Positions 3,061 through 64,000 of a DNA stretch of 64,000 nucleotides are shown piece by piece. Both the position numbers and the translations under genes were made by a program. Numbering within the stretch: the first letter of the stretch is position 1; each line of letters opens with the position of its first letter. Origin of the DNA: Agrobacterium tumefaciens (lineage in GTDB: Bacteria; Pseudomonadota; Alphaproteobacteria; Rhizobiales; Rhizobiaceae); assembly GCF_005221385.1 (NCBI RefSeq), contig NZ_CP039903.1:930001-994000 (forward strand), read 5' to 3'. The notes below the pieces were generated by a model that saw only the letters and a list, made by a program, of their open reading frames with translations, was not told the DNA's origin and searched no databases.

Positions 3061-3375
3061 ATTAGCGACCTCTCTTTTGTTCACTAAATGTTCTAATTTT
3101 AGCGGAGAGTCAACAAAGCAATACGGCCGTCGTTTTCTTTAGTGAAAGGCGAGTGGCATGACAAAGAGCAAATCGCGAACCTGTTCATTAGAACCGCATT
3201 CCTCGATACCGGAAGGAACTCAGGCGGCTGATGATCGCCAAACGGCGGGGGACCGCTGAGACATGATGCAAGGGCCCCGGATGAGAGGCGGGGCTGCGTC
3301 AAAAAGACCGTGCTTGAATGCATGAATGAAGTTGCTGAGGCAGCAGTTTTGACGTAGCTCTACCTGCGGGAGATT
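3061..3375. other. Intergenic region
   Basis: About 315 bases between divergent small genes. The first 40 bases are AT-rich and would hold the promoter of the minus-strand 67-aa gene. No supported ORF. Confidence 0.35.
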
Positions 3376-59937: not shown

Positions 59938-61260
59938 ATGCGTCTCAGCCGTTATTTCATGCCCATCCTGAAGGAAAATCCCAAGGAAGCGGAGATCGTG
60001 TCCCACCGCCTGATGTTGCGCGCCGGCATGATCCGGCAGCAATCGGCTGGCATTTATTCCTGGCTGCCGCTCGGCAAGCGCGTGCTGGACAAGGTCAACA
60101 GGATCATCCGCCAGGAGCAGGACCGTTCCGGCGCCATCGAGCTTCTGATGCCGACGCTGCAAACGGCCGAGCTTTGGCAGGAAAGCGGCCGTTACGATGA
60201 TTACGGCAAGGAAATGCTGCGCATCAAGGACCGCCAGGACCGCCAGATGCTGTATGGCCCCACCAATGAGGAAATGATCACCGACATCTTCCGTTCCTAC
60301 GTAAAGTCCTACAAGAACCTGCCGCTGAACCTCTACCATATTCAGCTGAAGTTCCGCGACGAGGTACGTCCGCGTTTCGGCACCATGCGTTCGCGTGAGT
60401 TCCTGATGAAGGACGCCTATTCCTTCGACTTGACCAAGGAAGACGCGATCCACTCCTACAACAAGATGTTCGTGGCTTACCTGCGCACCTTCGAGCGCCT
60501 TGGCCTGCGCGCCATTCCCATGCGTGCCGATACCGGCCCCATCGGCGGCAACCACAGCCACGAATTTATCATTCTGGCCGATACCGGTGAATCCGAGGTC
60601 TTCTGCCACAAGAGCTTCCTCGACCGTGCCATTCCGGCTGAAAATACCGACTTCGACGATGTCGCAGCCCTTCAGGGTGTATTCGACGAGTGGACTGCCG
60701 ATTATGCCGCCACCTCCGAAATGCATGACGAAGCAGCCTATGATGCCATTCCGGATGGTGAGCGTCTTTCGGCACGCGGTATCGAAGTTGGTCACATCTT
60801 CTATTTCGGCACCAAATATTCCGAGCCTATGGGCGCGAAAGTGCAGGGCAAGGACGGCAAGGAACACCCTGTCCACATGGGTTCTTATGGCATTGGCCCG
60901 ACACGCCTTGTTCCCGCCATCATTGAAGCATCGCATGATGAGAACGGAATCATCTGGCCGGCCTCGGTCGCGCCTTTTGATGTTGTCATTATCAACATGA
61001 AGGCTGGTGATGCGGCCTGTGATGCGGCTTGCGAAAAGCTGTATTATCAGCTCTCCAACGCCGGCAAGGATGTTCTTTACGACGATACCGACGACCGTGC
61101 GGGCCAGAAATTCGCCACCGCCGATTTGATCGGTGTGCCGATGCAGATCATCGTCGGCCCGCGTTCTGTTGCGAACGGCGAAGTCGAAGTGAAGGACCGC
61201 AAGACCGGCGAACGTGAAACCGTCACAATCGAGGCGGCAATGAACAAGGCGCTTGGCTAA
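59938..61260 (+). CDS. proS: Prolyl-tRNA synthetase (short alphaproteobacterial type)
   Basis: A 440-residue class II synthetase that charges tRNA-Pro. Conserved blocks are [20 protein letters not shown] (motif 1), [20 protein letters not shown] (motif 2) and [20 protein letters not shown] (motif 3), with an anticodon-binding C-terminus. It lacks the large INS editing domain of E. coli-type enzymes (about 570 residues), as in other alphaproteobacteria, which use separate trans-editing proteins. The ATG at 59938 has GGAAG upstream; the frame extends to 59827. Confidence 0.96.
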
Positions 61261-61277
61261 GCGCGAACGGAAAGATG

Positions 61278-61312
61278 GGAGCGGCCTTCATGCGAAGACC
61301 GCTCCGGTTTTA
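61278..61312 (+). terminator. Hairpin between proS and lolC
   Basis: Stem GGAGCGG-C-CTTC / GAAG-A-CCGCTCC with a four-base loop (ATGC) followed by GGTTTTATGG. Reasonable intrinsic terminator for proS, though the T-run is short. Confidence 0.55.
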
Positions 61313-61387
61313 TGGCGCAGGCGCCGCTACGATTGGGACCGATCTTTGGAAAAGACCGATCTTGCAAATTGAGATCAGGGAGACGAC

Positions 61388-62695
61388 ATGGCAAAAGCCG
61401 ATGCTGACAAGGGTGCGGCTCCTTCCGCCCGGGAAAAGACCGCCCGGCCTTTTTCCGCTTTCGAACGCATGGTGGCATGGCGCTATCTGCGGTCGCGGCG
61501 CAAGGAAGCGTTCATTTCCGTCATCGCCGGTTTTTCTTTTGTCGGCATCATGCTGGGCGTTGCAACGCTCATCATCGTCATGGCTGTCATGAATGGTTTC
61601 CGTACCGAGCTGATTTCGCGCATTCTCGGCATTAACGGCCATATGATCGTCCAGCCGATCGATCAGCCCTTCAATAATTATGACGAGCTGGCGAAGAAGT
61701 TTTCCGCCGTGCCGGGCGTCACCATGGCCCTGCCGCTGGTGGAAGGCCAGACATTGGCCTCCGGCCGCGGCGGCGCAGGCTCCGGCGCGCTGGTGCGTGG
61801 CGTGCGCCAGGAGGATATCGACAAGATCAAGGAAGTCGCCAGCAACATCAAGACCGGCGATCTCGTCGGCTTCATGGCAGGCGATGGCGTTCTGGTCGGC
61901 TCCAGGCTTGCGGCGCAGCTTGGCGTGACGGCGGGAGATGACATCACCCTCATTTCGCCGGAAGGCGACGTGACGCCGATGGGCGTCAATCCGCGCGTCA
62001 AGTCCTACAAGATCTCAGGCGTCTTCGAGATCGGCATGTCGGAATATGATGCGTCGATGATCTATATGCCGCTGTCCGAAGCCCAGCTTTATTTCAATGC
62101 CGACGGCATCGTGCAATCCATCGAGCTTTATGTCAGCCGCCCTGATGACGTTGACGGCATCCGGCCGCTGGTGGAGCAGGCGGCAGAACGGCAGATTTAT
62201 ATCACCGACTGGCGACAGCGGAACCAGACCTTCTTTTCCGCCCTGCAGGTGGAACGAAACGTGATGTTCATGATCCTGACGCTCATCGTTCTGGTGGCGG
62301 CGCTGAACATCATTTCCGGCCTCATCATGCTGGTGAAGGACAAGGGCAGCGATATCGCCATTCTGCGCACCATGGGGGCCAGTTCCGGCGCGGTCATGCG
62401 CATCTTCTTCATGACCGGGGCGGCCATCGGCACGGTCGGCACCTTTGCCGGGGTGGCGCTCGGCGTCATCGTCTGCCTCAATGTGGAATCCATCCGGCAG
62501 TTCTTTTCGTGGATATCCGGCACGGTTCTGTTTGACCCGCAGCTTTATTTCCTCAGCCAGTTGCCGGCCGAAATGGATTTGAGCGAGACCATCACCGTCG
62601 TCATCATGGCGCTGACGCTTTCTTTCCTGGCAACGATCTTCCCAGCATGGCGGGCCTCCAAGCTCGATCCGGTGCAGGCCCTGCGTTACGAATAA
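61388..62695 (+). CDS. lolC: Lipoprotein-releasing system permease (LolC/E family)
   Basis: A 435-residue inner-membrane protein with the MacB/FtsX topology: TM1 near residue 40 (FISVIAGFSFVGIMLGVATL), a large periplasmic domain at about 65-285, and three C-terminal helices (FMILTLIVLVAALNIISGLI and so on). It starts with GAFERMVAWRYLRSRRKEAF-like features typical of LolC/E. It works with the ATPase encoded 15 bases downstream. Many alphaproteobacteria have one LolF-type gene instead of separate C and E, so the exact label is uncertain. Confidence 0.9.
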   Translation: MAKADADKGAAPSAREKTARPFSAFERMVAWRYLRSRRKEAFISVIAGFSFVGIMLGVATLIIVMAVMNGFRTELISRILGINGHMIVQPIDQPFNNYDELAKKFSAVPGVTMALPLVEGQTLASGRGGAGSGALVRGVRQEDIDKIKEVASNIKTGDLVGFMAGDGVLVGSRLAAQLGVTAGDDITLISPEGDVTPMGVNPRVKSYKISGVFEIGMSEYDASMIYMPLSEAQLYFNADGIVQSIELYVSRPDDVDGIRPLVEQAAERQIYITDWRQRNQTFFSALQVERNVMFMILTLIVLVAALNIISGLIMLVKDKGSDIAILRTMGASSGAVMRIFFMTGAAIGTVGTFAGVALGVIVCLNVESIRQFFSWISGTVLFDPQLYFLSQLPAEMDLSETITVVIMALTLSFLATIFPAWRASKLDPVQALRYE

Positions 62696-62710
62696 GGACC
62701 GCTTCGCAAT

Positions 62711-63394
62711 ATGGCAAAAAAAACAGTGCTGCGGCTTACCGGCGTGGAACGGACCTATGGTCAGGGTGAAACGTCGCTTTCCATTCTGCGCAAGGCCGAT
62801 CTTGAATTGAGAAGCGGTGAGATGGTGGCGCTCGTCGCCCCCTCCGGTACCGGAAAATCCACACTGCTGCATCTGGCGGGGCTTCTGGAACATCCTGACG
62901 CGGGTGAGGTTTTCATCAACGGCGCGCCATGCAACGGGCTTCCGGATGAAACCCGCACGGCGATCCGTCGCAGCGATATCGGCTTCGTTTATCAGTTCCA
63001 TCACCTGCTGCCGGAGTTTTCGGCGGTGGAAAATGTAATGATGCCGCAGCTCATCGCCGGTCTGACGCAGGCTGAGGCGCGCAAGCGTGCCAGCGCCCTG
63101 CTGGATTACATGCGCGTCGGCCATCGCGGCGAACATCGCCCGGCCGAACTTTCCGGCGGCGAGCAGCAGCGCGTGGCGATTGCGCGCGCGGTTGCCAATG
63201 CGCCGCTTCTGCTGCTCGCGGATGAGCCGACCGGCAACCTCGATCCCGAGACCGCGCATTATGTTTTCGATGCGCTGGAGGCCCTGGTGCGCCAGTCCGG
63301 CCTTGCGGCGATGATCGCCACGCATAACCACGACCTCGCTGCCCGCATGGACCGACGGGTAACGCTTGCAGACGGCAAGATCGTCGACTTCTGA
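62711..63394 (+). CDS. lolD: Lipoprotein-releasing ABC transporter ATPase
   Basis: A 227-residue ATPase. Walker A is APSGTGKST, the signature is [14 protein letters not shown], and Walker B is [12 protein letters not shown]. It powers transfer of lipoproteins to the periplasmic carrier LolA with the adjacent permease. Confidence 0.95.
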
Positions 63395-63513
63395 TCGTGA
63401 CGGCATAAGGCGACCGTCGCGAAGCCTTATGTGATCTGCTACGAAGCGGTGAGTCTCTTCGCCCTTGCGTCTTCGGGAAGACCCGCTCGTCCTTCCACAG
63501 TTGAATTTTTGAG

Positions 63514-63547
63514 AACCCGGAGGTGTTTTTTGCCTTCGGGTTTTTTT
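63514..63547 (+). terminator. lolCD terminator
   Basis: Stem AACCCGGAGG/CCTTCGGGTT (one G-T wobble) with a nine-base loop followed by seven T residues. It separates lolCD from the SOS-type promoter downstream. Confidence 0.75.
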
Positions 63548-63643
63548 GCTTTGGAGTCAGGGGCTTGCCGATCATGCGAGCGGAACCGCAGCTGATTCTG
63601 CGGCGTTAACAAGAGGAATACCAGCAAAACCCTGTTGACAATC

Positions 63644-63669
63644 GAACAAAATGAGAACAAAGTTGGAAC
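63644..63669 (+). promoter_or_regulatory. Two overlapping alphaproteobacterial LexA boxes
   Basis: Three GAAC half-sites at 63644, 63655 and 63666 are separated by exactly seven bases each (AAAATGA and AAAGTTG). GAAC-N7-GAAC is the complement of GTTC-N7-GTTC, the LexA box of alphaproteobacteria. The sites follow a TTGACA (63635-63640) and lie just upstream of the ribosome binding site of a 28-codon ORF, so LexA would block this promoter. Confidence 0.7.
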
Positions 63670-63690
63670 ATAACGAGTAAGGAGAGACCA

Positions 63691-63777
63691 ATGACTGATT
63701 TCATCCGTGACGTTGCCGCTTTCGCTTCCATCGCTGTCTTTGTTGCCAGCTTTTCGGTGATCCTCACTGCCCTGTGA
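63691..63777 (+). CDS. 28-residue single-span membrane protein under LexA boxes (SidA-like candidate)
   Basis: A 28-codon ORF with AAGGAGAG six bases before its ATG. It begins MTDFIRDVAAFASIAVFVAS and is one membrane span (about residues 8-27) after a short charged N-terminus. It lies 21 bases after two overlapping LexA boxes and 105 bases before dnaE. Caulobacter SidA, a 29-aa SOS-induced inner-membrane inhibitor of cell division, has the same size, topology and regulation. Homology is not claimed from sequence; the similarity is of architecture. It may be cotranscribed with dnaE. Confidence 0.65.
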   Translation: MTDFIRDVAAFASIAVFVASFSVILTAL

Positions 63778-63882
63778 AGGAAACACCGGCGCAGAAGCCT
63801 GTATGGAGGCCGCAAGGCTGTAGACTTTAAGCGCCGGAAATCGGAAAATCGCCCCCTCGATTCAGAATGACAGGACGACGAT

Positions 63883-64000
63883 ATGGGCGATACGGTTGTG
63901 CGTGGAGAAAACTCTGACGAAACGCTGAAAACGCCTGGTTTCGTCCATCTGCGGGTTCATTCCGCTTACTCCCTGCTTGAGGGGGCGTTACCCCTCAAGA
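63883..64000 (+). CDS. dnaE: DNA polymerase III alpha subunit, N-terminal fragment (runs off window)
   Basis: The first 39 codons of a gene that continues beyond the end. The start MGDTVVRGENSDETLKTPGF is followed by VHLRVHSAYSLLEGALPLK, the N-terminal PHP-domain signature of DnaE (FVHLxxHSxYSLLEG). The chromosomal position after lolCD and the sequence indicate the replicative DnaE1 and not the SOS mutasome DnaE2, but the fragment is short. Confidence 0.85.
   Translation, partial: MGDTVVRGENSDETLKTPGFVHLRVHSAYSLLEGALPLK

Follow-up and report, generated by a model that had tools for sequence, protein, structure and literature searches.

A LexA-boxed 28-codon gene upstream of dnaE in Agrobacterium tumefaciens probably encodes a SidA-type division inhibitor

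We analyzed a window of 64,000 nucleotides from Agrobacterium tumefaciens (contig NZ_CP039903.1, positions 930,001 to 994,000); the locus described here lies at its far end, with every feature on the forward strand. A lolC/E permease gene (61388 to 62695; TIGR02212 lolCE, above the cut-off) is followed by lolD (62711 to 63394; best match TIGR02211 LolD, below the curated cut-off). An intrinsic terminator is predicted after lolD (63511 to 63545), a signal that is weak alone (1 found versus 0.8 expected in shuffled sequences), and it would separate this upstream operon from the unit of LexA boxes and open reading frame (ORF) that follows. This ORF, running from an ATG at 63691 to a TGA ending at 63777, is a real gene that is not annotated; conservation, the ratio of nonsynonymous to synonymous change (dN/dS) and hydropathy mark it as a sidA-like gene for a 28-amino-acid (aa) single-helix membrane protein, MTDFIRDVAAFASIAVFVASFSVILTAL. 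After a gap of 105 bp (63778 to 63882), in which no terminator was predicted, comes dnaE, encoding the 1,167-aa alpha subunit of DNA polymerase III (63883 to 64000, running past the window end). Two blocks in the gap are conserved within Agrobacterium, one around GTAGACTTTAAG and another before the dnaE start. The former could represent a promoter or leader belonging to dnaE itself, so that read-through from the ORF promoter may contribute only part of dnaE transcription.

The region upstream of the ORF has the layout of a LexA-controlled promoter. A probable −35 element, TTGACA (63635 to 63640), has its TTGAC core in 26 of 26 Agrobacterium loci and 22 of 24 loci from other Rhizobiaceae. It is followed by three GAAC half-sites starting at 63644, 63655 and 63666, whose spacing of 11 + 11 bp creates two overlapping GAAC-N7-GAAC boxes, GAACAAAATGAGAAC (63644 to 63658) and GAACAAAGTTGGAAC (63655 to 63669), with the middle half-site common to both. 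A ribosome-binding site, AAGGAGAG (63679 to 63686), whose motif is present in 26/26 Agrobacterium loci, completes the array, and both boxes sit between the −35 element and the start codon. A scan of 63395 to 64000 for a sigma-70 promoter with a TATAAT-like −10 element returned none, and only the −35 candidate was assigned. The sequence-only reading of this DNA had described the TTGACA, the three GAAC half-sites at 11-bp spacing, the ribosome-binding site and the 28-codon ORF for a hydrophobic helix, and direct reading confirmed every detail. Boxes of the same type precede lexA and uvrA in the same genome, and the Caulobacter LexA motif is given as GTTC-N7-GTTC (PMC12700426), the other orientation of this pattern. 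The 5.5-Mb genome contains a single copy of the exact GAAC triple (reversed control, 0). Single GAAC-N7-GAAC boxes number 170 genome-wide versus 94 for the reversed pattern, and four lie in the window versus 1.84 expected, a count reached in 9 of 100 shuffles. A LexA-type switch of the 28-codon ORF is well supported by these comparisons, and LexA would be expected to bind here.

The peptide has a short charged N terminus (D3, R6, D7) followed by one hydrophobic helix, and its net charge is about −1. Searches of Pfam and NCBIfam with this peptide returned no family at an E value of up to 10 in either. A genome-wide peptide search found a match in all 24 Agrobacterium relatives as well as in the genome itself (25/25, one each); among the Rhizobiaceae, 155 of 297 genomes matched at an E value of up to 1, the weakest of these including chance matches. 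At the level of the order, matches with E values above about 0.02 were mostly chance-like and were left unused. The ATG and all 28 codons are kept in all 50 loci read (26 from Agrobacterium and 24 from other Rhizobiaceae), and none of the 28 second codon positions varies within the 26 Agrobacterium loci. Counted by the simple Nei-Gojobori method with no correction for multiple hits, dN/dS was 0.13 for these 26 loci and 0.26 over all 50. The boxes are kept alongside the ORF: at least one exact box is present in 25/26 Agrobacterium loci, the exact triple in 16/26 and a relaxed (G/A)AAC triple in 26/26. An exact box lies 20 to 75 bp before the ORF in 25/26 Agrobacterium loci, 20/24 loci of other Rhizobiaceae and 15/18 entries from other families, the last being those judged genuine by the analyst, with two (L043 and L089) representing the same place. 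Furthermore, pK101a of Sinorhizobium sp. K101 carries the same order as the window, namely lolC, lolD, box triple, ORF (MADFVRDLAAFASMSLFIVSISVIALGL) and dnaE; PLSDB shows no feature at its ORF site, in a record that has only six features as a whole.

Next, we looked at the corresponding place in Caulobacter. Named Caulobacter genomes were reached through ParB (MipZ proved a dead end as a route), and the region upstream of dnaE was read in 12 genomes. In each of the nine Caulobacter-type genomes, dnaE is directly preceded by a 29-aa single-helix ORF, with an exact box in seven and a one-mismatch box in two; Chenggangzhangella has a boxed 36-aa ORF upstream of dnaE, and in Roseovarius and Neomegalonema the region read upstream of dnaE holds neither box nor helix ORF. 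In C. vibrioides, the 29-aa ORF is LexA boxed and lies 35 bp before dnaE; its 19-residue hydropathy maximum is 2.08 versus 2.31 for the window peptide. In the literature, sidA is CCNA_02004 (PMC10769358) and Caulobacter dnaE is CC1926 (PMC1839093). Because the two gene numberings are offset by 79 at recN (CC1983, ccna_02062) and by 83 at uvrA (CC2590, ccna_02673), sidA and dnaE should adjoin or nearly so. Since length, box and gene numbering agree, the C. vibrioides ORF is very probably sidA. SidA of Caulobacter crescentus resembles the window ORF in size (29 versus 28 aa), in having one helix and a LexA box and in lying directly upstream of dnaE, and both peptides begin their helix with R-[DE]-x3-[FL]-x-S-[IV]; the window differs in its exact half-site triple and in its 105 bp to dnaE, compared with 35 bp in Caulobacter. 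The earlier reading had called the window protein SidA-type and had set conservation of the ORF and its GAAC-N7 sites beforehand as a test. Both are kept in close relatives and beyond, and the window ORF stands before dnaE just as the boxed Caulobacter ORF does, so that the label is well supported.

The window peptide and SidA show no significant similarity when compared directly. Against a profile of Caulobacter peptides, the window peptide was matched or exceeded by 214 of 2,000 shuffles, and a Rhizobiaceae profile run against the Caulobacter peptides was likewise not significant (103 of 2,000 shuffles reached the best score). Profiles built from intermediates gave a different picture. When the profile comprised 29 peptides taken from outside both groups, the window peptide scored 37.6 bits and five of the seven distinct Caulobacter peptides, those used in the homology tests, scored 20.4 to 22.8 bits, and none of 5,000 shuffles reached any of these scores; 13 of the 29 had been found beforehand by likeness to Rhizobiaceae peptides (12) or through a named record (1), which favors the window peptide. 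The shuffles preserved segments, permuting the polar start separately from the hydrophobic part. As a cleaner test, given how those 13 had been found, we also used 16 peptides picked without regard to likeness, each being the helix ORF that follows a box before dnaE; 14 came from outside the order, and two (L168 and L193) came from the window's own order. They derive from the 21 boxed windows of the class survey described below, leaving out the window's own, L166 (without an ORF), L173, L174 and L202; L170 entered the profile in shortened form, with M written as its first residue. With this profile the window peptide scored 22.7 bits (0/5,000 shuffles) and the Caulobacter peptides 17.6 to 20.9 bits (1 to 6 of 5,000). 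These results suggest a family link between the window peptide and the Caulobacter ORF through intermediates rather than directly; overall, comparison supports the identity of the gene well.

To survey the class, we searched 191 genomes, found a DnaE match in 180 and read the windows upstream of dnaE in the best 110 of these by DnaE similarity (two being short: L217, 589 bp; L247, 133 bp). An exact GAAC-N7-GAAC box was present in 21 of the 110 windows (own included) and absent from the remaining 89. By comparison, 40 shuffles averaged 1.25 and never exceeded 4, and the reversed pattern gave 1. A hydrophobic-helix ORF of 24 to 45 aa followed 19 of the 23 boxes at 25 to 90 bp, as against 253 of 5,450 random places. 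The other orientation, GTTC-N7-GTTC, was found in 10/110 windows, twice beside a GAAC box, and one of the other eight windows precedes a helix ORF: L215, an alphaproteobacterial locus upstream of dnaE, has GTTCCATTTTTGTTC 104 bp before the helix ORF MLATLTGRDLVTMASLAMTAYGMVTIAGLLSGV, perhaps a further variant of the arrangement. A profile scan marked 20/110 windows and 0/110 on the other strand; 17 of the 20 were in the profile already, two more were close to its rows, and L202 alone was fresh (11.7 bits). Similar boxed genes occur in many other alphaproteobacteria, and their distribution is unusually deep.

DnaE was downstream of the ORF in all 69 entries first tested. This set represents 67 distinct places, since L089 and L094 repeat L043 and L044; L046, L086, L095, L096 and L098 to L102 (judged false or not examined) and L074 to L078 (repeats) were left out. 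We then read 20 further Rhizobiaceae loci chosen as weak or second matches: six had box and DnaE, four had a box without DnaE, and ten had neither. The four boxed loci without DnaE come from three other genera and were read for about 760 to 870 bp beyond the ORF. In L272 and L273, of one genus, the boxed ORF is followed by a convergent lipB, confirmed by family in L272 and recognized by eye in L273; in L291 the boxed ORF precedes a co-directional carB; and L290 is the fourth such locus. We accordingly gave up the idea that DnaE always follows the ORF. Since box and ORF are kept together without dnaE, the box is coupled to the small gene.

The ten loci with neither feature (L275, L277, L279, L280, L281, L282, L283, L285, L287 and L288) carry second SidA-like peptides that have no LexA box and no DnaE nearby. 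The neighbors of five were compared with phage families, and four matched: an Erf-like annealing protein (L279), an exonuclease (L277), phrog_1376 (L280) and phrog_2201 (L288); L275 matched none. Such peptides were also found at 4 of 91 viral loci, from three contigs (reversed control, 0), although these contigs look nearly identical to the genome of L279 and L280 and are hardly independent of it. A tblastn search of phage and plasmid records with the peptides gave two weak Pseudomonas phage matches (E value of 3) and otherwise none; because the low-complexity filter was on and even pK101a, which had been found by DNA, was missed, this outcome carries no information. It is possible that the unboxed, prophage-type copies are phage-borne division inhibitors.

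These findings fit a SidA-type function, which we consider the probable one. LexA dimers on the two overlapping boxes would keep the 28-codon gene off; upon DNA damage, RecA-stimulated cleavage of LexA would open the promoter, and the 28-residue peptide would insert in the inner membrane and hold the septal cell wall synthase (FtsW with FtsI and FtsN) inactive. Cells would then grow without constricting until repair was done and LexA was back, and some additional alpha subunit of polymerase III may come from transcripts that read through into dnaE. PMC4211646 reports that SidA inhibits division through FtsW while the Z ring stays unbroken and that mutations of the FtsW residues A31, F145 and A246 confer escape from it. 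All three residues are identical in FtsW of the window genome (47% overall identity), which, with three residues, is a weak test. In addition, a model positions SidA at helix 7 of FtsW, with low confidence (PMC13396833). Taken together, the action of SidA on FtsW, the conserved escape residues and the helix 7 model lead us to infer a LexA-controlled arrest of septal wall synthesis.

Alternatively, the boxes might serve dnaE, and the ORF, acting in cis as a leader peptide or upstream ORF, would adjust dnaE expression and have no function of its own. The presence of DnaE just downstream in all 69 entries first tested would agree with this, but 4 of the 20 further loci keep box and ORF with no DnaE in the roughly 760 to 870 bp read, unboxed copies occur in phage-type contexts, the distance to dnaE ranges between 35 bp and about 400 bp, and conservation extends to the amino acid sequence, beyond what a mere open frame would need; we regard this explanation as unlikely. 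A pure accident, with a chance ORF and boxes that are chance or serve something else, could appeal to how often a single GAAC-N7-GAAC box arises by chance. Given the dN/dS of 0.13, the unique triple and the pairing of boxes with such ORFs throughout the class, we see next to no prospect of its being correct.

The ORF could instead encode an SOS-induced toxin of the TisB/DinQ type, which would act by depolarizing the membrane and bringing on dormancy, not by inhibiting the divisome. TisB is under LexA control, which counts for this explanation. The size class is shared as well, TisB being 29 aa long (PMC11449926). Place and motif, by contrast, tie the ORF to Caulobacter sidA, and no Rfam family scored above its cut-off at 61000 to 64000, where an undescribed antisense RNA would escape such a search. 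Moreover, the window peptide's net charge of about −1 differs from that of most toxins of this type. We hold it improbable that the gene encodes such a toxin and retain the SidA-type inhibitor as the preferred explanation.

Several known systems resemble a SidA-type gene in part. TisB and DinQ of E. coli are also SOS-linked single-helix peptides but differ as membrane toxins with antisense RNA control and an unrelated genomic place. YneA (Bacillus), SosA (Staphylococcus) and ChiZ (Mycobacterium) are larger than the window peptide. According to PMC13396833, these three are small membrane proteins, induced by damage, that block division at late steps; unlike the window peptide, SosA has an extended helix and ChiZ carries a LysM domain, and the likeness is one of description. 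DidA of Caulobacter is likewise a damage-induced single-helix division inhibitor, but it has 71 aa, is driven by DriD instead of LexA and targets FtsN (PMC4211646).

In the literature searched, we found no SidA homologue reported from Agrobacterium or rhizobia, which is no proof of its absence in print, and no description of a deep distribution of SidA-type genes. How rhizobia and agrobacteria stop division after damage is likewise not settled in that literature. These bacteria are not known to encode SulA. The locus offers a candidate gene, its switch and a likely target, and it suggests that SidA is no Caulobacter peculiarity and that, where LexA sites in this class have been assigned to dnaE, their first target is a checkpoint gene. 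A broader proposition, on which we are evenly divided, is that the Alphaproteobacteria inherited from their ancestor a checkpoint in the form of a LexA-switched arrest peptide encoded before dnaE, which was missed because its gene has fewer than 40 codons and its box was credited to dnaE; it would have moved with its switch or been lost in some lineages, and Rhizobiaceae prophages would have captured an unboxed form to stop host division.

Other LexA-type boxes were noted in passing. The 15-mer GAACAAAATGAGAAC recurs at G000:C1:1247760-1247774 (L002), with a 140-aa ORF, lipoprotein-like by eye, 114 bp downstream. Positions 3079 to 3093 of the window, on the minus strand, hold the A/T-rich LexA-type box GAACATTTAGTGAAC, which recurs exactly at G000:C1:1507807, and a further LexA-type box at G000:C1:1978830-1978844 (L012) lies 159 bp before an ORF named GreA-like by eye.
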